Shown in pieces: positions 23,955 through 35,541 of a stretch of DNA of 64,000 nucleotides. Under the pieces are notes generated by a model that saw only the letters and a list, made by a program, of their open reading frames with translations, was not told where the DNA came from and did not search any database. The stretch comes from a virus. How positions within the stretch are numbered: the stretch's first letter is position 1; each line of letters begins with the position of its first letter. The translations under genes were made by a program, and so were the position numbers. The stretch covers positions 44,864 to 108,863 of the IMG/VR virus record IMGVR_UViG_3300008113_000014. The stretch is one strand, 5' to 3'.

Positions 23955-23970
23955 TGTGATATAGGTCACG
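23955..23970. promoter_or_regulatory. TGTGA-N6-TCACA-type palindrome (site a, one mismatch)
   Basis: TGTGA-TATAGG-TCACG; overlaps the end of the small membrane gene. Confidence 0.5.
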
Positions 23971-24082
23971 CTCCAAGCGTGAAGCATAGGATAACGGCTA
24001 TCGCTACGCCTACAAAGGCTCCAATTAGTCCGTAAGCGACATTCTCATCTAGGAAATCTTGTAGTGCTGTAAATGGGTTCAT
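23966..24082 (-). CDS. 38-aa small membrane protein
   Basis: Soluble MNPFTALQDFLDEN head then a single hydrophobic helix (YGLIGAFVGVAIAVILCF). AAAGG ribosome site. It has its own promoter (24132-24160). Function unknown; small membrane peptides are common in phage early regions. Confidence 0.6.
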   Translation of the reverse strand: MNPFTALQDFLDENVAYGLIGAFVGVAIAVILCFTLGA

Positions 24083-24131
24083 GTTAGTGACCTTTCGTTT
24101 AGTAGTTATATTTTAACTATCTAATACTGCA

Positions 24132-24160
24132 AGTATAACATGGATACCTGTCAAAGTCAA
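24132..24160 (-). promoter_or_regulatory. Promoter of the 38-aa membrane gene
   Basis: TTGACT, 17-bp spacer, TATACT on the minus strand. It contains TTTGACAG exactly 10 bp from the -10 box, a variant of the TGTCAG-N10 promoter type. Confidence 0.7.
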
Positions 24161-24181
24161 GTCCTGACACGGCGTGTCGCA

Positions 24182-24197
24182 TGTGATGTCGCTCACA
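24182..24197. promoter_or_regulatory. TGTGA-N6-TCACA palindrome (site b, perfect)
   Basis: TGTGA-TGTCGC-TCACA in the divergent control region 24083-24417, which contains no gene but two promoters and two palindromes. Confidence 0.6.
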
Positions 24198-24290
24198 TCG
24201 CCTCGGGCGACTTGTCAAATCAACACGCCGATCATTTTAAGATTGTTATGAGATTGTTATAGTTTTCCCATAAATGTGACCTACATCTCA

Positions 24291-24306
24291 TGTGATACGG
24301 CTCACA
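24291..24306. promoter_or_regulatory. TGTGA-N6-TCACA palindrome (site c, perfect)
   Basis: TGTGA-TACGGC-TCACA, with a degenerate copy (TGTGA-N6-TCTCA) immediately before it at 24275. It lies about 50 bp upstream of the promoter at 24333. Confidence 0.6.
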
Positions 24307-24332
24307 ATGTCCGAATTGGTAGCATTTTGGAT

Positions 24333-24362
24333 TAGACATTTGTCAGACCCCCATGCTACAAT
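24333..24362 (+). promoter_or_regulatory. TGTCAG-N10 promoter 1
   Basis: TAGACA, 18-bp spacer, TACAAT; TGTCAG at 24341-24346 is 10 bp from the -10 box. The leader then forms AGCGG/CCGCT just before the ribosome site. Confidence 0.75.
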
Positions 24363-24417
24363 TACAGTATAAAGAAAAACAAGCGGTAAAGAAATCCGCT
24401 AAAGAAAGGTGGTCACT

Positions 24418-24594
24418 ATGACTACACTAAACACACTATGCAAGTGGCATGAGCCTCTTGTTTCCGCTATCTCAGAAATTGGAGATGAGCAATTTACACT
24501 ATGCATGAATTGCGATAGCAACATTGAGCGTTACTACTATGATAGTGACCCTGAGCAATTTCCTACATGGACAGATTGGTATGTGACTAAATGA
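24418..24594 (+). CDS. 58-aa zinc-ribbon-like protein
   Basis: ATG 24418 follows GAAAGG; an upstream in-frame GTG is not used. CKWHE and CMNC give a possible two-part metal site, with an aromatic C-terminus (FPTWTDWYV). First gene of an ATGA-coupled operon of five. Confidence 0.65.
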   Translation: MTTLNTLCKWHEPLVSAISEIGDEQFTLCMNCDSNIERYYYDSDPEQFPTWTDWYVTK

Positions 24595-24773
24595 ACGACA
24601 CTATGCAATTTATAGATGAGCAAGGCTTATGCGCTATGGATAACATTTGCGCTTTCTGCATAACACTATTTGACGGGTGGAATAGATTTTGCCCTAGATG
24701 TAAGGACTATAAGGGCGTTATGGCTCTCCCTGATTTTATCAATACCTATGGAAAGGACGGACTCTCTAAATGA
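24591..24773 (+). CDS. 60-aa zinc-ribbon protein
   Basis: CAFC and CPRC separated by 14 residues make a plausible zinc knuckle. Starts within the previous stop (ATGA). Function unknown. Confidence 0.65.
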   Translation: MNDTMQFIDEQGLCAMDNICAFCITLFDGWNRFCPRCKDYKGVMALPDFINTYGKDGLSK

Positions 24774-24934
24774 GTACCTTTGTTAATCTCCCCTCAGTAT
24801 GTGGGGCAACATCTGCAAGCGTAGATGTGTATGACTTAGACCTTAACCCTCATGGGGTTATCTGTTGTGACAATTGCAAATCAATTGTGTTATGCCGTAA
24901 GGCTTGGGACTACCTATACAAGGAGGCTAAGTAA
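24770..24934 (+). CDS. 54-aa Cys-containing protein
   Basis: ATGA overlap with the preceding gene; contains CCDNC followed by LCRKAWDYL, a treble-clef-like half site. Next gene begins TAATG. Confidence 0.6.
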   Translation: MSTFVNLPSVCGATSASVDVYDLDLNPHGVICCDNCKSIVLCRKAWDYLYKEAK

Positions 24935-25071
24935 TGCCAGTATTTAATTTTGAGTTATTTGTAGATGTAGAAGCAGATGATTTTGAGTCTGCCTTATCAT
25001 GGCTAAAGGCTATGCCACTAGAGAGACAACTAGATTTCCATGTCATTGACTATAAGCAATTGGAGGCTTAA
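24934..25071 (+). CDS. 45-aa small protein, paralogue of 25783-25920
   Basis: MPVFNFELFVDVEADDFESA then LSWLKAMPLE and a final strand. The protein at 25783-25920 has the same length and shares MPVFNF, DFESALSWLK/NFESALSWLK and PLER. A beta-alpha-beta mini-domain is likely. Confidence 0.65.
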   Translation: MPVFNFELFVDVEADDFESALSWLKAMPLERQLDFHVIDYKQLEA

Positions 25072-25074
25072 CAA

Positions 25075-25218
25075 ATGAAAAAAAATGTTTTAATTAGTTT
25101 TGTAACTGAAGCAGACACAGACCTTCAAGCAGTTTTTAATTTGAATAAAGTTTTTGCTAAACTTAGCGAAAACGAATTAGAAAAATTTAATGCGTTTGAA
25201 GTTTTACCTGTTGAATAA
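25075..25218 (+). CDS. 47-aa small protein
   Basis: MKKNVLISFVTEADTDLQAV... predicted beta-alpha-beta like its neighbour. Last gene before a strong terminator. Confidence 0.55.
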   Translation: MKKNVLISFVTEADTDLQAVFNLNKVFAKLSENELEKFNAFEVLPVE

Positions 25219-25229
25219 ATAAAGCCAAG

Positions 25230-25258
25230 ATCGCAGAAATAAAAACTCTGCGATTTTT
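25230..25258 (+). terminator. Intrinsic terminator
   Basis: Perfect 8-bp stem ATCGCAGA/TCTGCGAT (25230-25237, 25247-25254) followed by TTTT. Confidence 0.85.
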
Positions 25259-25273
25259 GCCTCGGGGAGCTGT

Positions 25274-25289
25274 GTGATGAGTATCACAA
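25274..25289. promoter_or_regulatory. TGTGA-N6-TCACA palindrome (site d, perfect)
   Basis: TGTGA-TGAGTA-TCACA, 55 bp upstream of the next TGTCAG promoter. Confidence 0.6.
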
Positions 25290-25319
25290 AAAATAATTCT
25301 ACGACACGCCCGAAAAGGT

Positions 25320-25349
25320 CCCCAATTTGTCAGTGGTACCTGCTAGAAT
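25320..25349 (+). promoter_or_regulatory. TGTCAG-N10 promoter 2
   Basis: TGTCAG at 25328-25333, 10 bp, TAGAAT with an extended -10 TGC. No recognisable -35 box at the 18-bp position. Confidence 0.75.
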
Positions 25350-25384
25350 TGCTAGTATAAACAAAAAGAAAGGTCGTTAAATAA

Positions 25385-25480
25385 ATGACACTAGATGAAT
25401 ACAAGGCGCTTGTAGAAGCGCAACGCAAGGCAAGCACCTTGCAAGCCATGTCCCTACTAAAGAAAGGCTCAGACAAATGA
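25385..25480 (+). CDS. 31-aa small protein
   Basis: Helical MTLDEYKALVEAQRKASTLQ peptide; GAAAGG ribosome site; ATGA overlap with the next gene. Unknown. Confidence 0.5.
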   Translation: MTLDEYKALVEAQRKASTLQAMSLLKKGSDK

Positions 25481-25623
25481 GCACTTTTGATAGAATACTA
25501 AAAGAGCAACAAGAAAAAAGAATTGCTCAATCAATAAAAGATAAAGCGGTTATTGAAGCCATGTTCTCCAATAACAATCGCCCCCTTAACAATAATCATG
25601 AATTAAAGAAAGTAGAAAACTAA
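25477..25623 (+). CDS. 48-aa small protein, paralogue of 23638-23784
   Basis: Shares RILKEQQEKR, IEAMFSNNNRPLNNNH with the minus-strand copy at 23.7 kb. A basic helix followed by the conserved motif suggests a protein- or nucleic-acid-binding peptide. Confidence 0.7.
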   Translation: MSTFDRILKEQQEKRIAQSIKDKAVIEAMFSNNNRPLNNNHELKKVEN

Positions 25624-25796
25624 TGAAAACTAATTTTGAGATTTCTCAACAGATAAACACTCTTGCTAAAAAGCACTATGGAGACATGGACTTAGCATGG
25701 TCATGGGGTTGCGCCCAAGCACTACTAACTACACCACAGTTAGAGTTAATTCTAGGAATACTATTAGAGAAGGAGCCAGATAATGCCAGTATTTAA
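25623..25796 (+). CDS. 57-aa protein
   Basis: Starts on the A of the previous stop. Helical: ISQQINTLAKKHYGDMDLAW, then SWGCAQALLTTPQLELILG. Overlaps the next gene by 14 bases in another frame. Unknown family. Confidence 0.55.
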   Translation: MKTNFEISQQINTLAKKHYGDMDLAWSWGCAQALLTTPQLELILGILLEKEPDNASI

Positions 25797-25920
25797 TTTT
25801 GACATTTCTGTTACCATTGAGGACGATAATTTTGAGTCTGCTTTATCATGGTTAAAAGTTATTCCATTGGAACGACTTGATTTTATTGTTGTTGATTATA
25901 CAGAATTGGAGTTAGACTAA
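25783..25920 (+). CDS. 45-aa small protein, paralogue of 24934-25071
   Basis: MPVFNFDISVTIEDDNFESA-LSWLKVIPLERLDF. AAGGAG precedes it inside the upstream gene. See the paralogue for the shared motifs. Confidence 0.65.
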   Translation: MPVFNFDISVTIEDDNFESALSWLKVIPLERLDFIVVDYTELELD

Positions 25921-25985
25921 TGCTGGTTGTTTTAATTGCTATCACTTCATTTGCTTTTGTAATTTGGATGCATAACGGAGCATAA
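25920..25985 (+). CDS. 21-aa membrane peptide
   Basis: MLVVLIAITSFAFVIWMHNG, a single hydrophobic helix, started at the overlapping TAATG. Such tiny membrane peptides recur at 29540 in this region. Confidence 0.4.
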   Translation: MLVVLIAITSFAFVIWMHNGA

Positions 25986-25994
25986 TAAAAAAAG

Positions 25995-26022
25995 ATCACA
26001 GAACTAAAAAGCTGTGATTTTT
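25995..26022 (+). terminator. Intrinsic terminator
   Basis: ATCACAG/CTGTGAT stem (25995-26001, 26012-26018) followed by TTTT. Confidence 0.8.
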
Positions 26023-26031
26023 GCTCGGGCG

Positions 26032-26052
26032 TTTTCCACAGGCTGTGTATAA
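26032..26052. other. Pair of DnaA-box-like sites
   Basis: TTTTCCACA and TGTGTATAA face each other across 3 bp; each differs by one base from the consensus TTATCCACA or its complement. Confidence 0.35.
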
Positions 26053-26056
26053 CTTA

Positions 26057-26072
26057 TGTGTTTAAGGTCACA
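26057..26072. promoter_or_regulatory. TGTGA-N6-TCACA-type palindrome (site l, one mismatch)
   Basis: TGTGT-TTAAGG-TCACA. Confidence 0.45.
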
Positions 26073-26103
26073 CAAAATCTTTCCCATTTTACGGCGTGTC
26101 GTT

Positions 26104-26132
26104 TTGACTTCCTGAAACTTATCTGGTATCCT
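26104..26132 (+). promoter_or_regulatory. Sigma70-like promoter upstream of repeats
   Basis: TTGACT, 17-bp spacer, TATCCT. No gene starts before 26285, so it would give a leader of about 145 nt containing the direct repeats. Confidence 0.45.
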
Positions 26133-26166
26133 TGTAGGTATAACAATTAAATAAAGATAAATCAGG

Positions 26167-26222
26167 CAGTGAGCCTAGCAAATAAATGTGACGAGTATCA
26201 CAGTGAGCCTAGCGAATAAATG
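26167..26222. repeat. 22-bp direct repeat flanking a palindrome
   Basis: CAGTGAGCCTAGCAAATAAA (26167 on) recurs at 26201 with one change; the perfect palindrome TGTGA-CGAGTA-TCACA (26187-26202) bridges the two copies. The copies end in ATG but have no open frame. Confidence 0.7.
26187..26202. promoter_or_regulatory. TGTGA-N6-TCACA palindrome (site e, perfect)
   Basis: TGTGA-CGAGTA-TCACA between two direct repeats, 29 bp upstream of TGTCAG promoter 3. Confidence 0.6.
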
Positions 26223-26252
26223 CCAAGATTTGTCAGCCCCCCGTGATAGGAT
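26223..26252 (+). promoter_or_regulatory. TGTCAG-N10 promoter 3
   Basis: TGTCAG at 26231-26236, 10 bp, TAGGAT. Confidence 0.75.
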
Positions 26253-26284
26253 AGTCTTATCACTTAAAGAAAGGAAGTCTATAA

Positions 26285-26482
26285 ATGACTTACACTATAA
26301 CACTAGAAACCTTTAATGGTTCTACTAAAAAAATCAACCTTGCCTCTAAGGGTGCGGTTGCTCAATTCGTATCACAATACCCAACACAATTACCTGTTGG
26401 CGTATCTGTAAAAATCGCTTGCGATACTCTTGGAATAAGTGGCACACTTCGTGGCACTTCTACACTAACAAAAACAAACTAA
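26285..26482 (+). CDS. 65-aa beta-rich protein
   Basis: MTYTITLETFNGSTKKINLAS..., Ser/Thr-rich with alternating hydrophobics; no charged helix. AAAGGAAG ribosome site. First of four genes ending before the pseudoknot at 27058. Confidence 0.6.
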   Translation: MTYTITLETFNGSTKKINLASKGAVAQFVSQYPTQLPVGVSVKIACDTLGISGTLRGTSTLTKTN

Positions 26483-26501
26483 AGAATAGGAAATAAAATA
26501 A

Positions 26502-26705
26502 ATGAAAATTGAACACAATCTAAAATTCGTAACTGAATTTGCAGAGGGCCACCCTGTAACTGCAACAGTAATGGCACTTGATGAAAGCACTCGTATCCTT
26601 ATGCTAGAGTCAATGCTAAAAGATTTGGTAGGCTCTCGCCTGCAACCTATCCTTGATGAAATAAATGCTGGTGGGTCCTATGCAATTCTAAAGGTGGCCG
26701 AATAA
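26502..26705 (+). CDS. 67-aa protein
   Basis: MKIEHNLKFVTEFAEGHPVTA..., an N-terminal strand pair then a helix (DESTRILMLESMLKDLVG). Its stop overlaps the next start (TAATG). Unknown. Confidence 0.6.
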   Translation: MKIEHNLKFVTEFAEGHPVTATVMALDESTRILMLESMLKDLVGSRLQPILDEINAGGSYAILKVAE

Positions 26706-26905
26706 TGATGACTCGTAAAGACTATGTAAAAGTTGCCGAAATTCTTAGCAACTATTTTGCTACATCTGTTTTTGATGAACAAGGAGAAATTTTATTTGCT
26801 GATTTGGTAGATGAATTTTCTCTAATGTTTGAAACTGATAACCCAAGATTTGACTCTGACAGATTTGCTATTGCTTGCTATAAAGAATTGGAGATGTCAA
26901 ATTGA
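26705..26905 (+). CDS. 66-aa acidic protein
   Basis: MMTRKDYVKVAEILSNYFATS...EFSLMFETDNPRFDSDRFAIACYKEL. This pattern of a short helical protein with a FDxxRFxxAC end is frequent in actinophage early regions. Unknown function. Confidence 0.6.
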   Translation: MMTRKDYVKVAEILSNYFATSVFDEQGEILFADLVDEFSLMFETDNPRFDSDRFAIACYKELEMSN

Positions 26906-27051
26906 TTTTAGATACTGGAACACTAATCGCAATCGTAATTGCACTTGGCGGATCTTTAACAGTTATGTGTTTATTTTGGAAACAAAATATTGCACAACAA
27001 AAAGAAATTCGCAGATTACAAATTTTATTGCGAACTGAGCGACTAAAATAA
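26902..27051 (+). CDS. 49-aa membrane protein (TTG start)
   Basis: TTG overlaps the preceding TGA. One membrane helix (LIAIVIALGGSLTVMCLFW) followed by a basic coiled tail (QKEIRRLQILLRTERLK). Likely a host-membrane-targeted early protein. Confidence 0.55.
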   Translation: MILDTGTLIAIVIALGGSLTVMCLFWKQNIAQQKEIRRLQILLRTERLK

Positions 27052-27057
27052 AATAAA

Positions 27058-27087
27058 AGACCTGAGCATGTCTGTGCAAAACTGCTT
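27058..27087 (+). ncRNA. CTGAGCA pseudoknot element 1
   Basis: AGAC-CTGAGCAT-GTCT, then GTGC and AAAACTGCTT. Stem AGAC/GTCT; loop GAGCA can pair with TGCTT (one G-T pair). A GCTCGGGGG-TTTTT run 22 nt downstream could compete for the same loop. Confidence 0.65.
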
Positions 27088-27117
27088 GATCCTTTTAAAT
27101 AAAAAAAGCTCGGGGGT

Positions 27118-27141
27118 TTTTCCACAGGCCTTTGTGGATAA
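27118..27141. other. Facing DnaA boxes
   Basis: TTTTCCACA and a perfect TGTGGATAA (complement of TTATCCACA) separated by 6 bp. Confidence 0.45.
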
Positions 27142-27152
27142 CTTTACGTGGT

Positions 27153-27168
27153 TGTGATTTTTCTCACA
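27153..27168. promoter_or_regulatory. TGTGA-N6-TCACA palindrome (site f, perfect)
   Basis: TGTGA-TTTTTC-TCACA, in the 273-bp control gap 27052-27324. Confidence 0.6.
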
Positions 27169-27262
27169 TTTGTTGAGCGTCTCATTATTTAAGACTACTC
27201 ACTAGTAGGTTGATAAATTATGATTAACAGGATAGACTTACATAGTAAGAAAAAATAAATAA

Positions 27263-27292
27263 CCGAAATTTGTCAGACCCTAGTGGTAGGAT
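27263..27292 (+). promoter_or_regulatory. TGTCAG-N10 promoter 4
   Basis: TGTCAG at 27271-27276, 10 bp, TAGGAT. Confidence 0.75.
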
Positions 27293-27324
27293 AAATAAAT
27301 AACAACAAAGAAAGAGGTTGGCAA

Positions 27325-27537
27325 ATGTCAGCAAATGTCTATTCAATAGAAAACCTACTTGTAGGAAAAACTTATCACTCACGCACTTTAACAGGCGAAA
27401 TCATAGATGCAGAAAAGTCTGATGTCTTTTATGGCTCAGGCTTAGAAAGTTATCGTGTTCAGGTTCGCCCACACTATCCTTCAGTATTTAATCTAAAGGA
27501 CACTTATCGTATTCTATCAGTAAAGGTTGGAGAATAA
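27325..27537 (+). CDS. 70-aa beta-rich protein
   Basis: MSANVYSIENLLVGKTYHSRTLTGEI...YRVQVRPHYPS...YRILSVKVGE: alternating strands as in small SH3-like barrels. AGAGG ribosome site. First gene of a six-gene operon. Unknown function. Confidence 0.6.
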   Translation: MSANVYSIENLLVGKTYHSRTLTGEIIDAEKSDVFYGSGLESYRVQVRPHYPSVFNLKDTYRILSVKVGE

Positions 27538-27541
27538 ATAA

Positions 27542-27733
27542 ATGGGAAACTTACTAGACTTTTTGGTTGATTGTGTTGATTGCCATGATGAGGGTGTCCT
27601 CTTTTTTGGTAATGGTGGCGAGGAATACGACTCAGAATTTTGCGATTGCGCTAAAGGCGTGTCGCTTGAAAATGAATACTGTGCATGGTATGCTGAAAGT
27701 ATCATGAACGAAAACTATAAGGAGAATAACTAA
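27542..27733 (+). CDS. 63-aa zinc-binding-like protein
   Basis: CVDCHDEG and CDC about 25 residues later, plus a further Cys, suggest a zinc ribbon with acidic surface. TAATG coupling to the next gene. Confidence 0.6.
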   Translation: MGNLLDFLVDCVDCHDEGVLFFGNGGEEYDSEFCDCAKGVSLENEYCAWYAESIMNENYKENN

Positions 27734-27951
27734 TGAACGAATACCTATACTCAGTTACTTGTACCTATGACTCAGATACCTCCACCACTTGGGTAGGGCG
27801 TTATAGTGACGCTTTATCTGCCGTTGAAAGTTATCAAAAGTTTATTGACCATGGACTTGCTAAAGAATACTCAACAATTAACTTGTCTGAACCTTCAGGC
27901 AAGATGCACACAAAAACTTTCTACAAAACAGGATTGGTGGTAACACGATAA
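27733..27951 (+). CDS. 72-aa protein
   Basis: Begins with strands YLYSVTCTYDSDTSTTWVGRY, a helix SALSAVESYQKF-like and ends with strands; resembles the small phage proteins that carry a beta-alpha-beta fold. Overlaps both neighbours by 1 base. Confidence 0.6.
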   Translation: MNEYLYSVTCTYDSDTSTTWVGRYSDALSAVESYQKFIDHGLAKEYSTINLSEPSGKMHTKTFYKTGLVVTR

Positions 27952-28274
27952 TGGGACACAATACAGCGATTGACTTAGCAGAAAACATTGACATAAGCCT
28001 TGAACAGGCTATCGGTTATCACTTACAGGGTAATCACTACCCACCCGTACCGCTAAGCATGGTTCAGCCTTGCATTGAGGCGTTAGACGCTGCACGAGAA
28101 ATGGACGCCATGCGCCAGATTGAAATGCCTGAAGGCATAACCTATAAGGGCAAAACTCATGCACCAGCATGGGCTATCATTGAACAACACCACTTGGACG
28201 CTTGGTTGCCACAAGATGAGGCAGACTATTGGGAAGAAGATGCAGGCTATGAATCAGGATTAGGTTTAGAATAA
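27951..28274 (+). CDS. Conserved actinophage-type protein, 107 aa
   Basis: LEQAIGYHLQGNHYPPVP followed by MVQPCIEALDAA is a pattern I recognise in many actinobacteriophage hypothetical proteins, with an acidic C-terminus. No function is known to me. Its presence supports an actinobacterial host. Confidence 0.7.
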   Translation: MGHNTAIDLAENIDISLEQAIGYHLQGNHYPPVPLSMVQPCIEALDAAREMDAMRQIEMPEGITYKGKTHAPAWAIIEQHHLDAWLPQDEADYWEEDAGYESGLGLE

Positions 28275-28352
28275 ATGAGTACTTTTTTTATTCCACACTC
28301 AAAGTATTGCGATTGCCCAGAGTGTTTAGACATGGAGGAACAGAATAAATGA
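28275..28352 (+). CDS. 25-aa zinc-knuckle peptide
   Basis: HSKYCDCPECLDM gives C.C..C plus His, enough for one zinc. ATG directly follows the previous stop; ATGA overlap with the next gene. Confidence 0.45.
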   Translation: MSTFFIPHSKYCDCPECLDMEEQNK

Positions 28353-28582
28353 GTGCTACAATTATTGACATGGAACTTGTAAAAGCTGATTCTCTAACTG
28401 TTGATGCGTTAGAACTTGGCGATCTAATTGGTTATGGTGATGAGATTGTTGAAGTAACTTTTATTGAATGTGATTCAACGGGAGATAACTATGACATTCA
28501 AATTGTAAATGATTTTGGTGAAAAAGAAATTGTTCAGTTTGCATTTGATGAAGAAGTTGATTGGTACGTTTATTTAGATTGA
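28349..28582 (+). CDS. 77-aa acidic beta protein
   Basis: Very acidic (EEVDWYVYLD end) with strands VKADSLTVDALELGDLIGY... and IVEVTFIECDS; looks like a DNA-mimic-sized small barrel or a beta-hairpin protein. Unknown family. Confidence 0.6.
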   Translation: MSATIIDMELVKADSLTVDALELGDLIGYGDEIVEVTFIECDSTGDNYDIQIVNDFGEKEIVQFAFDEEVDWYVYLD

Positions 28583-28601
28583 AAAACGCCCGAGGGGGCC
28601 C

Positions 28602-28617
28602 TGTGAGATTCATCACA
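28602..28617. promoter_or_regulatory. TGTGA-N6-TCACA palindrome (site g, perfect)
   Basis: TGTGA-GATTCA-TCACA directly upstream of a leaderless promoter. Confidence 0.6.
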
Positions 28618-28627
28618 TTTACGAGAT

Positions 28628-28656
28628 TTGATATTTTTCCCCATATCTGGTAAAAT
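28628..28656 (+). promoter_or_regulatory. Promoter of leaderless gene 28663
   Basis: TTGATA, 17-bp spacer, TAAAAT ending 6 nt before the ATG. Confidence 0.7.
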
Positions 28657-28662
28657 TATTAC

Positions 28663-28803
28663 ATGAAGAAAAATGCTGAGGAATTAAGACGCCTAATGGA
28701 ATTACGGCGATCTAATGCAGCCTCCGCTGTTCCAAATAAAAAAAAGTATGATAGAAAAAAATGTCAGTCCCTTATGCTAAAATTAAAGAAAGAAAGCGAG
28801 TAG
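28663..28803 (+). CDS. 46-aa basic peptide, leaderless
   Basis: Highly basic (ELRRLMELRRSNAAS, KKKYDRKKCQSL, LKLKKESE), likely nucleic-acid-binding. The -10 box lies 6 nt upstream of ATG. Its 3-prime half contains the TGTCAG promoter of the next gene, so the coding and control sequences overlap. Confidence 0.55.
   Translation: MKKNAEELRRLMELRRSNAASAVPNKKKYDRKKCQSLMLKLKKESE
28754..28783 (+). promoter_or_regulatory. TGTCAG-N10 promoter 5
   Basis: TGTCAG at 28762-28767, 10 bp, TAAAAT with TGC extension; lies inside the preceding small gene. Confidence 0.75.
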
Positions 28804-28808
28804 CCACC

Positions 28809-29531
28809 ATGTCAAAATTACTTAGAAGCAAAGATAGGAAAGTAGCAAATGCAGTTACACCAAATGGAAAACAAGCAAGTATCGCCAACACTTTCGGATT
28901 ACCCGCAGGCAAGGCTTATTCATGTCCTGGAGCGACTAGCGTATGCGAGAGTGTTTGTTATGCTGGCAAGCTTGAAAAAGTATTCCCAACAGTAAAGAAA
29001 AACTTATTGCACAATTGGGAATTAGTTAAAGACGCAGACCATGACACTATTGAAGCATTGCTTGAAGACATGATTAGTGAGTTTATTGCAGACTGCAAAA
29101 AGAAAGACGCACCCATGCTATTCCGTATCCACTGGGACGGGGATTTCTTTAATGACACTTACACATTCGCATGGAAGCATGTCATTCTTAATCATCCTGA
29201 AATTCAATTCTGGGTTTATACAAGAGTTAAGTCTGCAGCGGTAATGCTTAAGGACATTGATAATCTATCTTTATACTATTCTACAGATAGTGAGAATAAG
29301 TCTATTGGCGTTACCCTGAAAAAAGATCATGGTATTCGTCTTGCATACCTTGCTAAGAATTTCTTAGTAGGACAAGCAGACATGAAAGAGATGATAGGCA
29401 AGGTAGGGGCTAAGTGTCCTGAGAATAAAAAGGCTATCCCACTTATCTCAACAAATGGTTCGGCTTGCGTTTCTTGCTCATTGTGTGTATACTCAAAGAG
29501 TGACATAGTATTTTCATCAAGTAAAAAGTAA
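28809..29531 (+). CDS. Gene product 88 (GP88)-family phage protein
   Basis: 240 aa from ATG 28809; a longer frame starting at 28761 is an artefact of the promoter motif. Signature CPGATSVCESVCYAGK, then FPTVKKNLLHNWEL, LFRIHWDGDFF, VYTRVKSAAV and a C-terminal ACVSCSLC cluster match the mycobacteriophage GP88 family. Cysteine groups suggest a metal- or Fe-S-containing enzyme, and the HWDGDFFN/TDSENKSIG layout is radical-SAM-like in order, but the activity is unknown. Followed by a tiny membrane gene. Confidence 0.8.
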   Translation: MSKLLRSKDRKVANAVTPNGKQASIANTFGLPAGKAYSCPGATSVCESVCYAGKLEKVFPTVKKNLLHNWELVKDADHDTIEALLEDMISEFIADCKKKDAPMLFRIHWDGDFFNDTYTFAWKHVILNHPEIQFWVYTRVKSAAVMLKDIDNLSLYYSTDSENKSIGVTLKKDHGIRLAYLAKNFLVGQADMKEMIGKVGAKCPENKKAIPLISTNGSACVSCSLCVYSKSDIVFSSSKK

Positions 29532-29539
29532 GGAGATAA

Positions 29540-29599
29540 ATGGAAAGCCTATTTATCCTATTAGTAATGGGGTTATTAGTGTTTATGATTTACCAATAA
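29540..29599 (+). CDS. 19-aa membrane peptide
   Basis: MESLFILLVMGLLVFMIYQ preceded by AAGGAG at good spacing. Its stop overlaps palindrome h. Confidence 0.4.
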   Translation: MESLFILLVMGLLVFMIYQ

Positions 29600-29614
29600 G
29601 TGACTTACATCACA
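29599..29614. promoter_or_regulatory. TGTGA-N6-TCACA-type palindrome (site h, one mismatch)
   Basis: AGTGA-CTTACA-TCACA. Confidence 0.5.
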
Positions 29615-29655
29615 CCCGTAAGCGTCTCAAATAGTGAGAAATACAAGAAATGGAG

Positions 29656-29685
29656 TTGAAAAATGTCAGTAGGAAATGTTATACT
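29656..29685 (+). promoter_or_regulatory. TGTCAG-N10 promoter 6
   Basis: TTGAAA, 18-bp spacer, TATACT; TGTCAG at 29664-29669, 10 bp from -10. It creates a false ATG 57 bp upstream of the real start. Confidence 0.75.
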
Positions 29686-29719
29686 TAATACATACAACAA
29701 ACTAAAAAGGAGAAACAAC

Positions 29720-29884
29720 ATGACAGTAGCAAATACATACAAGGTAGGCGACCTCTACACATCACAGAAGTCAAAGGTAACAGGAACAATTCTTGAAATC
29801 TCACCTACTGCAAAGGACACAGTTCGTGTTAAGTTAGATGTTAATGGTAACACACGCTGGACAACATGGAAAGCGCAATCGTAA
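29720..29884 (+). CDS. 54-aa SH3-like protein
   Basis: Start set by AAGGAG before ATG 29720. VANTYKVGDLYTSQKSKVTG...VRVKLDVNGNTRWTTWKA is five alternating strands, like a small SH3/KOW-type barrel. Followed by pseudoknot element 2. Confidence 0.65.
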   Translation: MTVANTYKVGDLYTSQKSKVTGTILEISPTAKDTVRVKLDVNGNTRWTTWKAQS

Positions 29885-29911
29885 TCTAACAAGCCAGTTA
29901 GATAGTAACTC

Positions 29912-29940
29912 AGACCTGAGCAAGTCTGCTAAAACTGCTC
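29912..29940 (+). ncRNA. CTGAGCA pseudoknot element 2
   Basis: AGAC-CTGAGCAA-GTCT, GCT, AAAACTGCTC. Loop GAGCA pairs perfectly with TGCTC. Confidence 0.7.
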
Positions 29941-29970
29941 ACACAAAATGTCAGACCTAACCCCTATACT
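29941..29970 (+). promoter_or_regulatory. TGTCAG-N10 promoter 7
   Basis: TGTCAG at 29949-29954, 10 bp, TATACT; begins directly after pseudoknot 2. Confidence 0.75.
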
Positions 29971-30003
29971 ATAAATAAACCACCAAAGAAAAGAGAAAAA
30001 CAC

Positions 30004-30426
30004 ATGGCACGACAAAAAGCAATCTCAGTAAAGATAGCAACACCAAAAGTAATCAAGGCACTAGAAACTGCACTAGCAAAGTTAGAAGCAGACTACGCAT
30101 CACAAGAAGCAAACGAGGCTAAGTATGAAAAGACTCGTAAGGCTTGGCTAAAAGAAATGCAAGACTACGCTATTGCTAACATCAAGAAGGCAGAGAACTT
30201 TCGCACCAACTATCGTTCATGGTCAAATAATCTTAACATTGACTTTGACTTAACAGTTAGCGAAAAGGATTTGCCTAAAGAGCCTGAGAAGGACTTTGAG
30301 ACAATTCATGTTCATAGTTATCGTGAGCAGAAAGAGGAAATCTCTAACGCAATTCGTATTCTAAAGATGACAGATGAGGAAACAGTTTCCACATCAACTT
30401 ATCAAGCGGTTGCTCGTTATCTGTAA
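30004..30426 (+). CDS. 140-aa helical protein
   Basis: Long charged helices (VIKALETALAKLEADYASQEA, KYEKTRKAWLKEMQDYA) with a short central loop, probably coiled coil. AAGAAAAGAGAAA upstream acts as ribosome site. No family recognised. Followed by two pseudoknot copies. Confidence 0.7.
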   Translation: MARQKAISVKIATPKVIKALETALAKLEADYASQEANEAKYEKTRKAWLKEMQDYAIANIKKAENFRTNYRSWSNNLNIDFDLTVSEKDLPKEPEKDFETIHVHSYREQKEEISNAIRILKMTDEETVSTSTYQAVARYL

Positions 30427-30462
30427 ATAATTTGGGGGGCAACTTAAAGTCCTAAACCCAAA

Positions 30463-30489
30463 CAACCTAAGCAAGTTGCAAAACTGCTT
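30463..30489 (+). ncRNA. CTGAGCA pseudoknot element 3 (compensatory variant)
   Basis: CAAC-CTAAGCAA-GTTG, C, AAAACTGCTT. Here the loop G is changed to A (AAGCA), matching TGCTT, a compensatory change. A CTGCC/GGCAG hairpin follows at 30501-30523. Confidence 0.7.
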
Positions 30490-30525
30490 CACTAAAGTTA
30501 CTGCCAGTGCTATAGCGAGGCAGAC

Positions 30526-30554
30526 GTTCCTGAGCATGAATTGAAAAGGCTCAC
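30526..30554 (+). ncRNA. CTGAGCA pseudoknot element 4 (divergent)
   Basis: GTTC-CTGAGCAT-GAAT, TG, AAAAGGCTCA, then CTTTTTG. TGAGC pairs with GCTCA. The most divergent copy; its T-run makes it also resemble a terminator. Confidence 0.5.
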
Positions 30555-30572
30555 TTTTTGCCCCCGAGCTCA

Positions 30573-30588
30573 TGTGAATTTGATCACA
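30573..30588. promoter_or_regulatory. TGTGA-N6-TCACA palindrome (site i, perfect)
   Basis: TGTGA-ATTTGA-TCACA. Confidence 0.6.
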
Positions 30589-30626
30589 CCCTTTACGTAC
30601 CACCATTTAAGATCCCTGGATTTACG

Positions 30627-30656
30627 ATTGGCATTTGTCAGTCCAACCTGCTAGAA
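30627..30656 (+). promoter_or_regulatory. TGTCAG-N10 promoter 8
   Basis: TTGGCA, 18-bp spacer, TAGAAT with TGC; TGTCAG at 30635-30640. Confidence 0.78.
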
Positions 30657-30696
30657 TTATATTAATATCAGAACAACAGAAAGAAGGAAGCCCCCA

Positions 30697-31194
30697 ATGG
30701 GACTAGACATGTACCTAAGTGCTAGAAAGCATTTTGAAAAAATCAACTGGCAAACACTACAGGCTAATGATGAATTATCTTACAATTCACCTGAAGCCGT
30801 ATATCCTAAGTTCAATGACCTAATGGCATTGACACAACTCACAAATGTTGCAACAGATATTTATGGAGCAGAAGTAACAGTTACTTGTGCCTACTGGCGC
30901 AAGGCTAATCAGATACACGCTTGGTTCGTAAAGAATGTTCAACATGATGTTGATAACTGCGGAGACTACTATGTCTCACAAGATAAACTAATAGAATTGC
31001 TTGCACTATGTAAGCATGCCCTAGCAACAAAAGACCCTAGCCTATTCCCACCACAAGCAGGGTTTTTCTTTGGTGGTACAGATATTGATGAATGGTATTG
31101 GCGTGACCTTACTGATACTATTAGTCAATTAGAGCGTATCTTTGCGCTACCAGAAATTGATAAGTTATCATTTTTTTATTCATCATCTTGGTAA
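30697..31194 (+). CDS. Conserved phage protein (MGLDMYL family)
   Basis: 165 aa. MGLDMYLSARK, YWRKANQIHAWFVKNVQ, DNCGDYYVS and AGFFFGGTDIDEWYW are hallmarks of a widespread phage/bacterial hypothetical family. No enzymatic motif is known to me. GAAAGAAGG ribosome site. Expressed from its own promoter. Confidence 0.75.
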   Translation: MGLDMYLSARKHFEKINWQTLQANDELSYNSPEAVYPKFNDLMALTQLTNVATDIYGAEVTVTCAYWRKANQIHAWFVKNVQHDVDNCGDYYVSQDKLIELLALCKHALATKDPSLFPPQAGFFFGGTDIDEWYWRDLTDTISQLERIFALPEIDKLSFFYSSSW

Positions 31195-31224
31195 TTGACA
31201 TTTGTCAGTGCCATACCCTATAAT
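31195..31224 (+). promoter_or_regulatory. TGTCAG-N10 promoter 9 (best match)
   Basis: Consensus TTGACA, 18-bp spacer, TATAAT; TGTCAG at 31203-31208. TTGACATTTGTCAG contains the palindrome TGACA-TT-TGTCA over the -35 region. Confidence 0.85.
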
Positions 31225-31258
31225 TAAACTAACCAACAAACAGAAAGAGGTAGCCCTC

Positions 31259-31696
31259 ATGGACCAGCAACAAATTCCACCAGTAGTAAAAACAGATAAT
31301 CACTACATGACACGAGAGTTTTTAGAAACTACTCTTGTACAAAACAAAACACGGATAGATGAATTAGAAAAGCATATCCAAGTCGTAACACAACGCTCAT
31401 ACGGCGAGGCTGCAGAGCGCAACCGTATGCGTACTGAAATGCAAGAGTGGACTTTTGAAGCAATTGAAGCAGGCACACTCAATGAGTCAGAAGGACAAGA
31501 AATTGCTGACATCTGTGGCTTTGAACTTACAAAAGAATTTGAAGTTGAAGTTACAGTTATGTATTCAGTTACAGTGAATGCACGAAATGAAGAAGAAGCA
31601 CAAAATGCAATTCACGATATTGATTTTGATACTGTAGATTACAATTCAGATTCAATTCAATACCTATCATCTTCAATTGATAGAGTAGATATTTAG
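31259..31696 (+). CDS. 145-aa hypothetical protein
   Basis: ATG 31259 after GAGG; the frame from 31202 is a promoter artefact. N-terminal half helical (EFLETTLVQNKTRIDELEKHI), C-terminal half a strand-rich domain (FEVEVTVMYSVTVNARNEEEA) that resembles the beta-alpha-beta paralogues at 24.9 and 25.8 kb. Followed by pseudoknot element 5. Confidence 0.7.
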   Translation: MDQQQIPPVVKTDNHYMTREFLETTLVQNKTRIDELEKHIQVVTQRSYGEAAERNRMRTEMQEWTFEAIEAGTLNESEGQEIADICGFELTKEFEVEVTVMYSVTVNARNEEEAQNAIHDIDFDTVDYNSDSIQYLSSSIDRVDI

Positions 31697-31711
31697 TAGG
31701 GGGCTACTAAT

Positions 31712-31738
31712 GGACCTGAGCATGTCCTTAAACTGCTT
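31712..31738 (+). ncRNA. CTGAGCA pseudoknot element 5
   Basis: GGAC-CTGAGCAT-GTCC, TT, AAACTGCTT. Stem bases differ from element 1 by a compensated change (GGAC/GTCC versus AGAC/GTCT). Confidence 0.7.
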
Positions 31739-31779
31739 TATTTTTATTTATGCCGTTGCATAAAAATGCAGCTCGGGGG

Positions 31780-31795
31780 CGTGACCAAGATCACA
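31780..31795. promoter_or_regulatory. TGTGA-N6-TCACA-type palindrome (site j, one mismatch)
   Basis: CGTGA-CCAAGA-TCACA. Confidence 0.5.
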
Positions 31796-31853
31796 CTGTG
31801 TTTTACGACACATTAAAAAAATGTCCATTTTTTCCCATTTTCAACTATCCTGA

Positions 31854-31883
31854 TTTGCATTTGTCAGACCCATTGTGTATAAT
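31854..31883 (+). promoter_or_regulatory. TGTCAG-N10 promoter 10
   Basis: TTTGCA, 18-bp spacer, TATAAT; TGTCAG at 31862-31867. Confidence 0.8.
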
Positions 31884-31917
31884 TAAATTAACTACAAAAG
31901 AAAAGGAAAAATAACTC

Positions 31918-32934
31918 ATGGCACATGAACTAGAAACACAAAATGGCGTAGCAAGTTTTGCCTCATTTCGTGAACCTGCTTGGCATGGATTGGGTACTGT
32001 ATTCACAGAGGAAAAAACCACAAAAGAAATGTTAGATTTGGCTAATCTTTCTAATTGGAATGTTCGTCTTGAGGATTTGGAAACCCCTTCACATTTAACA
32101 AGCGACAAAAACTATCAGTATGTTTTGCGTACTAACCCTACAGATACAACACAGACAGACATTTTAGGTGTCGTTGGTGAGCGTTATCATGTTATGCAAA
32201 ACGAGGATTTATTCTCATTTGGCGATAACATTTTAGATGGTGGTGGTCGTTGGGAAACGGCTGGCTCAATCAAGGGTGGTCGTGTCGTATTTGGTGCGTT
32301 AGCACTAGAGCGTGAAACTATTCTTGACCCTAATGGTGTTGCAGATAAGGTAAAGACTTATTTGCTCATCAATACATCACATGACGGCTCAATCGCTATT
32401 CAAGCAAGCATAACACCTGTTCGTGTTGTGTGCGCTAACACTCTTAATCTTGCGCTTAACACTACAAAAAAGAAAAATGGCGTTAAGCAATCTTTCAAGA
32501 TACGCCATACACAAACTGCAAGCGGTAAGGTTGCCGTTGCTCGTGAAACTCTTGGGCTTGCTCATAAGTACATGGACTCTTTTGACCTCATGGCTAAGGC
32601 TATGATTGAAAAAGAAATCAATGCTACACAATTCAATGACATCATTTTGGCTGCCTATCCAAAGCCTGAAAAGGACTCTAAGGGTGCTTTCAAGAAATGG
32701 GAAAACAAGGTAGATGTTATTAACGACATTTACACAGGCGAGTTTAACGGCATGATTGCTGGTAACGCTTGGGGTGCTTTCAATGCACTAACTGAACGCC
32801 TTGATTGGTATCGTTCTGCTCGTGGTGGTTCTAACGAATCTATCCTTGCAAGCGCAAGCGGATTTGACCCTGCTATTAACGCAGAAAAAAATCGTTTGCT
32901 AAAAGTTGTGCAAAATGTTTTGCAAATTGCATAA
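31918..32934 (+). CDS. DUF932 (phage/plasmid-like) protein
   Basis: 338 aa. MAHELETQNGVASFASFREPAWHGLGT is the classic start of the DUF932 / phage-plasmid-like protein family; ITPVRVVCANTLNLAL in the middle is its other hallmark. Found in many phages and plasmids; no proven function, proposed links to replication or host regulation. Strong own promoter; followed by pseudoknot 6 and a tRNA. Confidence 0.88.
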   Translation: MAHELETQNGVASFASFREPAWHGLGTVFTEEKTTKEMLDLANLSNWNVRLEDLETPSHLTSDKNYQYVLRTNPTDTTQTDILGVVGERYHVMQNEDLFSFGDNILDGGGRWETAGSIKGGRVVFGALALERETILDPNGVADKVKTYLLINTSHDGSIAIQASITPVRVVCANTLNLALNTTKKKNGVKQSFKIRHTQTASGKVAVARETLGLAHKYMDSFDLMAKAMIEKEINATQFNDIILAAYPKPEKDSKGAFKKWENKVDVINDIYTGEFNGMIAGNAWGAFNALTERLDWYRSARGGSNESILASASGFDPAINAEKNRLLKVVQNVLQIA

Positions 32935-32942
32935 CTAAAAAA

Positions 32943-32969
32943 AATCCTGAGCAAGATTTAAAACTGCTC
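32943..32969 (+). ncRNA. CTGAGCA pseudoknot element 6
   Basis: AATC-CTGAGCAA-GATT, T, AAAACTGCTC. The whole stem differs from copies 1-5 yet still pairs. It ends 4 nt before a tRNA gene. Confidence 0.7.
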
Positions 32970-32973
32970 GCAA

Positions 32974-33047
32974 GGTTCCATAGATCAATTGGTTAGATCG
33001 CTACCCTGTCACGGTAGAGGCTACGGGTTCAAGTCCCGTTGGAATCG
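32974..33047 (+). tRNA. tRNA-Asp (GTC)
   Basis: Acceptor GGTTCCA/TGGAATC (one G-T), D arm GATC/GATC, anticodon stem CTACC/GGTAG with loop CTGTCAC (anticodon GTC), T arm ACGGG/CCCGT with TTCAAGT loop. No encoded CCA. Confidence 0.88.
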
Positions 33048-33136
33048 CAAGCTTAAGTGGGCCCCGAGGAAATTAGTACAAAACGGACATTTAAGAAACT
33101 ATATAAATAATCTCAGAAAATTTAATTACGACAGAC

Positions 33137-33165
33137 TTGCTTTTTTCCCAGTTTTTTGCTACAAT
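33137..33165 (+). promoter_or_regulatory. Promoter of the 33.2-34.0 kb operon
   Basis: TTGCTT, 17-bp spacer, TACAAT. An ATTACGACA motif lies just upstream, like those in the 36.5-37.2 kb region. Confidence 0.65.
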
Positions 33166-33194
33166 TAATTTATGACTACCACAGGAGAAAAATA

Positions 33195-33407
33195 ATGGAA
33201 CAATTCATAGATACACTAGCAGAGCACATTACAGGTGCTATCCAACAAGAAATAGCAGAAGAACTATTTGACCAATGGTCTTACAATAATTTAGAGGAAG
33301 GTGAGGACTATGCAGAAAACAAATTCATGCAATACGCCTCAGATGAATTAAAGCAACAGTATAACGAATACTATGGGTACATAGAGGGAGATGAATTCCT
33401 ACTATGA
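33195..33407 (+). CDS. 70-aa acidic helical protein
   Basis: ATG 33195 after AGGAG (a longer frame has no ribosome site). MEQFIDTLAEHITGAIQQEI...LFDQWSYNNLEEGEDYAENKF. ATGA coupling to the next gene. Unknown. Confidence 0.6.
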   Translation: MEQFIDTLAEHITGAIQQEIAEELFDQWSYNNLEEGEDYAENKFMQYASDELKQQYNEYYGYIEGDEFLL

Positions 33408-33550
33408 TTACCTCTCAAGAACTAATTGATTATATGTATGACGATAACCTAATACATTTTGACGACAGAGATACATCAGATGATTGTGATTGCCACATTC
33501 ATATAACACTACAAACTATGATTAAATATATGGAGGCAATTGAATGCTAG
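33404..33550 (+). CDS. 48-aa acidic protein
   Basis: MITSQELIDYMYDDNLIHFDDRD then DDCDCHIHITL, a Cys/His cluster that may bind metal. Overlaps both neighbours by a few bases. Confidence 0.5.
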   Translation: MITSQELIDYMYDDNLIHFDDRDTSDDCDCHIHITLQTMIKYMEAIEC

Positions 33551-33693
33551 GTTATACCATTGATGATTTAGATAAGATGAGCAATGCTGTACACAATGCA
33601 TACAAGCATATCACTGACCCTGATGATAAAGAGGGTATTTTAATGGCACAACAATTTCTCCAGGGCCTATGGGCAGAAGGGTACTTTGACTAA
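33544..33693 (+). CDS. 49-aa helical protein
   Basis: MLGYTIDDLDKMSNAVHNAY...GILMAQQFLQGLWAEGYFD. Overlaps the previous gene by 7 bases and the next by 1 (TAATG). Unknown. Confidence 0.5.
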   Translation: MLGYTIDDLDKMSNAVHNAYKHITDPDDKEGILMAQQFLQGLWAEGYFD

Positions 33694-33824
33694 TGACACT
33701 AGACGATGTATTAGATAAGATTGAGGCTATCATTGATAGTACTCATTCTGTTGTATCCCCGCTAAAAATGGATCACTGCAAGTACTGTACCACTTGGCTT
33801 ACTCTGACAGAGGAGTTAAACTAA
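33693..33824 (+). CDS. 43-aa protein with CxxC
   Basis: N-terminal helix MTLDDVLDKIEAIIDS (similar start to the 31-aa gene at 25385) and HCKYCTTWL, a probable half zinc knuckle. Confidence 0.5.
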   Translation: MTLDDVLDKIEAIIDSTHSVVSPLKMDHCKYCTTWLTLTEELN

Positions 33825-34039
33825 TGTGGACTAAATATGATTATCTATGTACTGACTGTGATGCTCTTATTGAGGTCACTACCCTGCAAGATCTGAGACG
33901 AGATGTCTATGGCTCTTGTCCCTGTGGATCTAATAAGACAATTAACATTGGGGTAGGAGATGCCTCTCGCCATGAAGAACCTGTGACGAACATCACACCT
34001 GTCAGACTTGTCAAAATCAACAGCAACCCCTATAATTGA
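33824..34039 (+). CDS. 71-aa zinc-ribbon protein
   Basis: CTDCD and CPCG spaced by about 22 residues form a clear zinc ribbon. Start chosen at the overlapping TAATG. The last third of the gene contains palindrome k and the promoter of the next gene, so control and coding overlap. Confidence 0.6.
   Translation: MWTKYDYLCTDCDALIEVTTLQDLRRDVYGSCPCGSNKTINIGVGDASRHEEPVTNITPVRLVKINSNPYN
33982..33997. promoter_or_regulatory. TGTGA-N6-TCACA palindrome (site k, perfect)
   Basis: TGTGA-CGAACA-TCACA inside the 3-prime end of a zinc-ribbon gene, directly before CTGTCAG. Confidence 0.55.
34008..34036 (+). promoter_or_regulatory. Promoter of leaderless gene 34043
   Basis: TTGTCA, 17-bp spacer, TATAAT; -10 ends 6 nt before ATG. 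Confidence 0.7.
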
Positions 34040-34042
34040 TAT

Positions 34043-34219
34043 ATGGACCTAAATACATTAAGAGAGTATATAAAAATTCACCTAATTTCATTGGAGCAAG
34101 ATGTTGAGGACGCTAACAATGATATTCCTATTAGTGATGATGAGCACTATGAAGCAGACCTTTATTACGAGGGAGCAATCGCTACCTGTGAACACCTATT
34201 GGAGTATATAAATGGATAA
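34043..34219 (+). CDS. 58-aa acidic protein, leaderless
   Basis: MDLNTLREYIKIHLISLEQD, then an acidic stretch and YYEGAIATCEHLLEYING; helical. Consensus TATAAT 6 nt upstream of ATG. Its end overlaps the next gene by 8 bases. Confidence 0.6.
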   Translation: MDLNTLREYIKIHLISLEQDVEDANNDIPISDDEHYEADLYYEGAIATCEHLLEYING

Positions 34220-34487
34220 TCTAACATTAGAGCCGCACCTACAACGTATGGTAGACGCAGGGGTATCAGGAACAGACATCCTGCACGGAGAGCTTAAGAA
34301 CCTTATGCTAATGGCAGAGCAAGAACTAGCAGAGGCTAGCGAACGTGAGCAGGAAACAGAAGAGGCTATGGACTCTATGGTACGCACAGAAGCAGAAGGA
34401 AGACTAGACGCCTTAGTAGCAGTATATAATCTAACATATGCCTTGTCCTTTGCTATCTCTGACCGTATGAAGTTGACAAACCAATAG
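34212..34487 (+). CDS. 91-aa helical acidic protein
   Basis: Long helix rich in Glu/Ala (LMAEQELAEASEREQETEEAM). Probably a coiled coil. The next promoter (34473-34501) lies in its last codons. Confidence 0.6.
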   Translation: MDNLTLEPHLQRMVDAGVSGTDILHGELKNLMLMAEQELAEASEREQETEEAMDSMVRTEAEGRLDALVAVYNLTYALSFAISDRMKLTNQ

Positions 34488-34501
34488 GGTTGCTGTAAAA
34501 T
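34473..34501 (+). promoter_or_regulatory. Promoter of the Api92-like gene
   Basis: TTGACA, 17-bp spacer, TAAAAT. Confidence 0.7.
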
Positions 34502-34533
34502 TATATTAAACCACCAAATAGAAAGAGACCGCC

Positions 34534-35229
34534 ATGCCAAACTGGGTATATAACGGATTAACCATTGAGGGTAATCCTGATTCCGTAAAGAAGTTAATGG
34601 AGCAGATGAATACACCATTCGTTCGTGTCCATGATAACTGGAGCACTGAGACACAGCAAATGCAAAAGCAACAGGTGACATATCCAAACCCTGTCTTTGC
34701 TTTCTGGAACATTGTTAAGCCTACTAATCTAGAGGCATATGATGGTCCTCAACCAACCAACACAGACTTAGCACAAGCAATGCGATTTGAGTCAGACCAT
34801 TGGTACGACTGGAATGTTCGTAACTGGGGTACCAAGTGGGATGTAGCCGTCTCATCTGTTGATACTCATCCTGATACATACATGGAAGATACTGTTAATG
34901 GTGAGAACCATGTCGTCTACTATAATTTTAATACCGCTTGGTCTCGCCCAATGCCTGCACTAATTAAACTATCTAATCAGTACCCTGACTTGCTATTTAC
35001 TTTATCATATGAGGAAGAAACTGGCTGGGGTGGAGAGTTAGAACTCTTGCGTGGAGAAATTATCTCAGAATCAGAATATGACAACATGTGCCGTGAATGT
35101 GACGGTACATACGAAAACAGTGAACTTGTTGAATGTAGCGACTGCGGATACCATCTATGCCCACACTGTGGCTGGAGCAATGATATGTGTGAGACCCACC
35201 AAAAGACCTATGAGGAGAAGCATGCCTAA
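34534..35229 (+). CDS. Api92-like (DUF1281-type) protein with C-terminal zinc fingers
   Basis: 231 aa. MPNWVYNGLTIEG, WGTKWDV, YYNFNTAWSRPMPA and SYEEETGWGGEL match the ferredoxin-like Api92/DUF1281 family, common in phages and mobile elements and of unknown function. Residues about 185-225 add a zinc-binding tail with CREC, CSDCGYHLCPHC and CETH. The fusion of this domain to a treble-clef-like module suggests a nucleic-acid or protein adaptor role. Confidence 0.75.
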   Translation: MPNWVYNGLTIEGNPDSVKKLMEQMNTPFVRVHDNWSTETQQMQKQQVTYPNPVFAFWNIVKPTNLEAYDGPQPTNTDLAQAMRFESDHWYDWNVRNWGTKWDVAVSSVDTHPDTYMEDTVNGENHVVYYNFNTAWSRPMPALIKLSNQYPDLLFTLSYEEETGWGGELELLRGEIISESEYDNMCRECDGTYENSELVECSDCGYHLCPHCGWSNDMCETHQKTYEEKHA

Positions 35230-35464
35230 GACTACTTATCTTATTGAACTATGTGTTGATGAAAAATGGTATGAGGCCATTAGCACGCTAACCGCTGATG
35301 TATACGAGGATGAAGTATGCGAATGGGTCAGGGTACAGGCAGAGACTGAGACTGATGATCAAGACTGTGAGAACTGTGAAGAGAACCCTAAAGAGCACCC
35401 TGAAGGCAAGTGGTGTACCTCCTGCAGGGATGACTTTAAAGAGTCAGATGAGGACGACGAATGA
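35222..35464 (+). CDS. 80-aa acidic zinc-binding protein
   Basis: ATG 35222 overlaps the previous gene by 8 bases. MPKTTYLIELCVDEKWYEAI strands, then acidic linker with CENC and CTSC, ending in a run of Asp/Glu. Confidence 0.6.
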   Translation: MPKTTYLIELCVDEKWYEAISTLTADVYEDEVCEWVRVQAETETDDQDCENCEENPKEHPEGKWCTSCRDDFKESDEDDE

Positions 35465-35541
35465 ACTGGACACAATTGACACTATTTGATATACTGGAAG
35501 AAACTACTACAAAAGGAGAAACACCATGGGAGCAAGAATAA
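35461..35541 (+). CDS. 26-aa peptide, possible
   Basis: MNWTQLTLFDILEETTTKGE starts within the preceding stop (ATGA) and overlaps the next gene by 16 bases. The promoter at 35467 lies inside it, so it could be fortuitous. Confidence 0.35.
   Translation: MNWTQLTLFDILEETTTKGETPWEQE
35467..35495 (+). promoter_or_regulatory. Promoter of gene 35526
   Basis: TGGACA, 17-bp spacer, TATACT. Confidence 0.6.

Follow-up and report, generated by a model that had tools for sequence, protein, structure and literature searches.

Ten promoters in a 64,000-nucleotide stretch of viral DNA (the window; positions 44,864 to 108,863 of IMG/VR record IMGVR_UViG_3300008113_000014) share the hexamer TGTCAG followed, after exactly 10 base pairs (bp), by a -10 box of the form TANNNT. 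We consider it highly likely that these are RecA-NDp (P1/PafBC-type) promoters run by the PafBC activator of the host, and the host's own DNA-damage sensor would accordingly seem to control a block of phage genes. An earlier note on this DNA had seen the ten sites, their fixed spacing and their dispensable -35 box, with the specific factor that these imply, and all of that stands; what falls is its proposal of a new promoter class, since TGTCAG-N10-TANNNT matches the published actinobacterial RecA-NDp/P1 promoter. The identification is one made by sequence, from the motif, its spacing and flanks, its retention at orthologous genes of relatives, the occurrence in candidate hosts of PafBC and of recA promoters that bear the motif, the lack of a WYL protein in the phages searched and the phased palindromes upstream.

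Identity of the promoters

The mycobacterial RecA-NDp/P1 promoter has the consensus tTGTCRgtg-8nt-TannnT (PMC5656591), the same hexamer at the same spacing. Its activator is the WYL protein PafBC: the PafB subunit engages the '-26' motif, and PafBC is wedged in between the promoter DNA and domain 4 of sigma-A (PMC11804915). Both contacts fit what is seen in the phage, where TGTCAG occupies -28 to -23 (taking +1 as 7 nucleotides after the -10 box) and the -35 region is weak. PafBC is activated by single-stranded DNA (ssDNA), and unless it has bound ssDNA it does not enter the complex of polymerase and promoter (PMC11804915).

The window has ten exact matches, every one of them on the plus strand and within 24341-31883; dinucleotide shuffles gave a mean of 0.83, and none of 100 reached ten. 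The rest of the virus record (108,863 bp in all) adds no further match, and the reversed control pattern gave one in the same search. Across the record TGTCAG and TANNNT are 10 bp apart in ten cases and at any other spacing in at most five. TANNNT is common in AT-rich DNA, which might be thought to favour chance or composition; that explanation is refuted by the conservation of the fixed spacing, with at least one site in 159 of 160 related loci and the element present at orthologous genes, and we leave it practically no probability.

All ten promoters lie 5' of a plausible start codon, with predicted leaders of 19-49 nucleotides from +1. From the first base of the -26 motif to the last of the -10 box they are 24341..24362 (-10 box TACAAT, predicted +1 at 24369, gene at 24418), 25328..25349 (TAGAAT), 26231..26252 (TAGGAT; gene at 26285), 27271..27292 (TAGGAT; gene at 27325), 28762..28783 (TAAAAT; gene at 28809, encoding GP88), 29664..29685 (TATACT; a small gene from near 29720), 29949..29970 (TATACT; gene at 30004), 30636..30657 (TAGAAT; gene at 30697), 31203..31224 (TATAAT; gene from near 31259) and 31862..31883 (TATAAT; gene at 31918, encoding a DUF932 protein). 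The earlier description of the flanks, T(T)TGTCAG with often TGC before the -10 box, needs some amendment: the context is TTTGTCAG at seven of the sites and AAATGTCAG at the other three (28762, 29664 and 29949), and the TG that precedes most of the -10 boxes is not at its usual place in 29949, 31203 and 31862. That the hexamers at the 18-bp -35 position run from perfect to unrecognisable is borne out, the series being TTGACA (31203), TTGAAA, TTGGCA, TAGACA and so on down to none that can be recognised.

Conservation in related phages

The relatives considered are 160 IMG/VR loci gathered by DUF932 and GP88 protein searches, some of which share a contig. In them TGTCAG and TANNNT stand at N10 in 676 distinct contexts, compared with a mean of 24.8 at other spacings (about 27-fold). 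Fifteen long records have 2-15 matches each, mostly in one block, against 0-2 for the reversed control. A few matches in relatives fall by coincidence in coding sequence, TGTCAGCAAATGTCTATACAAT at a gene start being one. In a pattern scan of IMG/VR the matches listed were single ones, which is no guide to the breadth of the motif. Carried to orthologous genes, the search that the earlier note had proposed finds the element kept at a set distance: the exact motif is upstream of DUF932 orthologues in 70 of 80 loci, with TGTCGG in six of the ten misses, and upstream of GP88 orthologues in 60 of 80.

Of the single-base variants, moreover, TGTCGG shows the strongest enrichment at N10 (42, with a mean of 5.9 at other spacings); TGTCTG gives 41 against 23.8 and TGTCCG 12 against 21.7. 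The fifth base is thus R (A or G), as in the published consensus, and not C or T. A profile of 370 non-redundant sites has A or T before the hexamer (about equally), [TAC][CG][CG] after it, mostly a TG-extended -10 box and a faint -35; the hexamer is followed by TG, AC or TC, with a similar split in the candidate host order. A trinucleotide of the form [ACT][CG][CG] follows the hexamer in all of the recA promoters, in 75% of the promoters of the phages and in 50% of the matches in the host order, but in 9% of other TGTCAG occurrences in these phages. The enrichment of TGTCGG and the likeness of the post-hexamer bases to those of recA promoters in the candidate hosts both lie outside the search pattern, and both agree with the RecA-NDp/P1 identity.

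Would these sites serve instead as repressor operators or as stoperators of the kind found in L5-type mycobacteriophages, as the earlier note also entertained? The sites are repeated, one-directional, short and asymmetric, and GP88 is shared with L5-type phages. A stoperator has no need of a fixed distance to a -10 box, and here every site is tied to one at exactly 10 bp; the scanned part of an L5-type phage is without such sites, and the searched stretches of mycobacteriophage KingCyrus hold no motif array. We regard a repressor role as very improbable.

Candidate hosts and their PafBC

The phage has a WhiB-family gene (50046-50333, minus strand; Pfam PF02467), and its terminase is 53-54% identical to that of Streptomyces phages of the Stanwilliamsviridae, the closest isolates. 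WhiB is a mark of actinophages, and on these two grounds the host is placed in the Actinobacteria. It is probably a freshwater member: a PstS-like protein (gene 44615-45739) is up to 57% identical to proteins of freshwater actinobacterial metagenome-assembled genomes, a homologue that offers a weak guess at the host.

Within the candidate host order, TGTCAG-N10-TANNNT lies upstream of recA in 13 of 15 genomes. One such promoter reads TTTGTCAGTGGTACCTGCTACTTT, to be compared with TTTGTCAGTGGTACCTGCTAGAAT in the phage at 25328, and the phage promoter there has 21 of 24 bases in common with the recA promoter of host-order genome G020. The -10 box of host-order recA is TACCTT, and those of the phage are nearer consensus. 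Over 121 genomes of the order the motif occurs about 167 times against 74 for the control (summed by hand), some 2.3-fold. WYL matches were obtained in 15 of the 16 bacterial genomes searched, with an adjacent pair of proteins of about 320 amino acids; the pair in one of them (G007) matches the solved PafB and PafC, and the gene that follows reads to us as TatC. By sequence comparison, then, the candidate hosts appear to encode adjacent PafB and PafC.

Might the reader of TGTCAG nevertheless be a product of the phage, an activator that takes over RNA polymerase in the manner of T4 MotA and AsiA, with WhiB as a possible sigma-binding partner? The fixed spacing, the weak -35 and arrays lying mostly in one phage region would suit it, and the phage has, besides its one WhiB gene, many small genes of unrecognised function. 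Against it, the motif, flanks included, is in use at recA and other genes of the candidate hosts, so that a host factor exists, and Karimac, a relative that bears WhiB, lacks the motif in the stretches scanned. No candidate beyond WhiB was recognised among the phage genes, no WYL protein was found in the phage or 13 relatives (14 phages searched), and no phage sigma factor is among the window's Pfam matches (25 of 32 families listed). This alternative, which the earlier note had raised with WhiB among its candidate regulators, now seems to us distinctly unlikely, and host PafBC the much better reader.

Several points weigh against assigning the promoters to host PafBC. The host is one that we infer; two of the 15 host-order genomes have no exact motif at recA; in the four first candidate genomes the bare pattern is not enriched (13 matches, with 19 for the control); the commonest trinucleotide after the hexamer in the phages is ACC, not the mycobacterial TG; and the palindrome described below is not enriched in the candidate order, so that its reader there is uncertain.

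Two observations from the same order may be recorded here. In four loci (L205, L206, L210 and L216) the motif precedes genes whose products look like DNA methyltransferases and CarD, a hint at damage control of restriction-modification genes. In genome G019 six matches to TGTCRG-N10-TANNNT fall within about 2.6 kb (L214:2000-4560), mostly upstream of small genes, a stretch that may be a mobile element or a defence island.

A phased Crp-type palindrome

The promoters have a second shared element, missed in the earlier note. The palindrome TGTGA-N6-TCACA has nine exact copies in the window, and Crp-type palindromes accompany most promoters of 23955-38062, two further copies (33982 and 38047) being without a TGTCAG-N10 promoter. 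Eight of the ten plus-strand promoters have a Crp-type site upstream, those at 29949 and 31203 being the exceptions. The sites, all assigned to the plus strand, are 24291..24306 (-70.5, with a one-mismatch copy at 24275), 25273..25288 (-75.5), 26187..26202 (-64.5), 27153..27168 (-138.5), 28602..28617 (-180.5), 29599..29614 (one mismatch; -85.5), 30573..30588 (-83.5) and 31780..31795 (one mismatch; -102.5).

In the loci of relatives there are 783 copies of TGTGA-N6-TCACA against 0-15 for control palindromes (redundant counts), and for 291 of 451 non-redundant promoters the 250 bp upstream contain a site that is exact or has one mismatch. The commonest distances across gene families are -64.5, -74.5 and -83.5 to -85.5, with a minority at -69.5 or further out, and among homologues of one family the palindrome is often shifted by 10 bp. 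Such spacing by one helical turn would be expected of a class-I activator. Enrichment of the palindrome is seen across the class but not in the candidate host order, and three of the four candidate genomes have a Crp-family gene; we infer from its form and phasing that a Crp-family protein binds it, and control by host PafBC together with such a protein is the most likely arrangement.

Neighbouring features

On the minus strand a divergent promoter (24132..24153), noticed earlier as a variant of the motif, does consist of TGACAG (24153-24148), 10 bp and TATACT (24137-24132), and serves a gene for a membrane peptide of 38 amino acids. The sequence is there; a regular variant it is not. TGACAG at N10 in relatives numbers 6, against about 10 at other spacings, so there is no enrichment, and we take it for a decayed copy. 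In homologues of the gene the motif is of the standard form and a Crp-type site is centred at -64.5, and in the window copy a palindrome (24182..24197, minus strand) is likewise at exactly -64.5.

An intergenic element, CCTGAGCANGT...AAACTGCT and often then GCTCGGGG, recurs at 27059, 29913, 30466 and 31714. These stem-loops are possibly terminators or structured RNA; they matched no Rfam family and their folds are weak.

A proposed mechanism and its interest

Host PafBC, switched on by ssDNA, would dock between sigma-A domain 4 and the DNA and read TGTCRG at about -26, after which the housekeeping RNA polymerase would start at the extended -10 box with no good -35 needed. About ten operons of small genes per phage genome would come under PafBC in this manner, and at most of the promoters the Crp-type activator site, phased upstream at about -64.5, -74.5 or -85, would join a second host global regulator to the first. 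Infection itself may raise PafBC activity, through ssDNA from phage replication or DNA degradation. From the hexamer and its position we expect PafBC to bind at these promoters, and the genes of the region would be early ones if their likeness to the terminal arrays of other actinophages is a guide. Taken whole, the proposal is that actinophages of a large group have placed a gene block under the host's ssDNA sensor, with ssDNA from phage replication or the breakdown of host DNA acting through PafBC on about ten operons, a Crp-family protein as second gate and perhaps a titration of PafBC that dampens host repair. It would make these genes a LexA-free equivalent of phage genes under SOS control, with activation where SOS uses a repressor; for that larger picture we hold the balance to be about even.

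A variant compatible with PafBC binding is that its basal activity suffices, the main control resting with the Crp-type site and DNA damage playing no role in infection. The phage -10 boxes, closer to consensus than that of host recA, and the phased Crp-type sites at many promoters would speak for it, whereas the dependence of PafBC on bound ssDNA for joining the polymerase-promoter complex speaks against it. It is a possibility to be taken seriously, though on the whole a rather unlikely one.

Phages that sense host DNA damage through LexA are familiar. For the PafBC pathway of actinobacteria, use by a phage appears to be unreported: we found no account of phage PafBC promoters in the literature searched, outside which most subscription journals lie. 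Here the phage and more than 100 uncultured relatives each have about ten gene clusters behind a DNA-damage promoter type of Actinobacteria. If the identification is true, one could predict from sequence how dozens of unknown genes of uncultured phages are regulated; and, with the host factor named, several hundred natural PafBC-type promoters would be at hand for defining PafBC recognition.

Comparison with known systems

The phage promoters share with RecA-NDp/P1 promoters TGTCRG at about -26, the 10 bp to TANNNT and the weak -35; in the bases that follow the hexamer and in the TG extension of the -10 they are like host recA. From RecA-NDp/P1 promoters they differ in being set in arrays of about ten, in -10 boxes nearer TATAAT, in a hexamer after which TGG is no commoner than ACC and TCC, and in being coupled to a phased Crp-type site. 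The middle promoters of T4 (MotA box, AsiA) are alike in that the -35 is replaced by a motif whose spacing to an extended -10 is set; the T4 factors are phage-encoded, whereas the motif here is the host's own. From the L5-type stoperator the phage sites are set apart by their tie to a -10 box.

Among the Stanwilliamsviridae, Karimac, Jay2Jay and Bmoc have a homologous DUF932 gene. It belongs to an array of small genes at the left end, each with its own short intergenic region (in Karimac the array recurs at the right end), and to this extent their arrays resemble the one described here. Unlike it, they hold neither a TGTCRG-N10 array nor TGTGA-N6-TCACA in the stretches scanned, and the regulatory wiring therefore appears to be specific to the lineage studied here. 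Finally, the TGTGA-N6-TCACA sites, one helical turn apart upstream of the phage promoters, recall class-I Crp-dependent promoters with their Crp/GlxR sites, with the difference that in the phage they are combined with the -26 motif.

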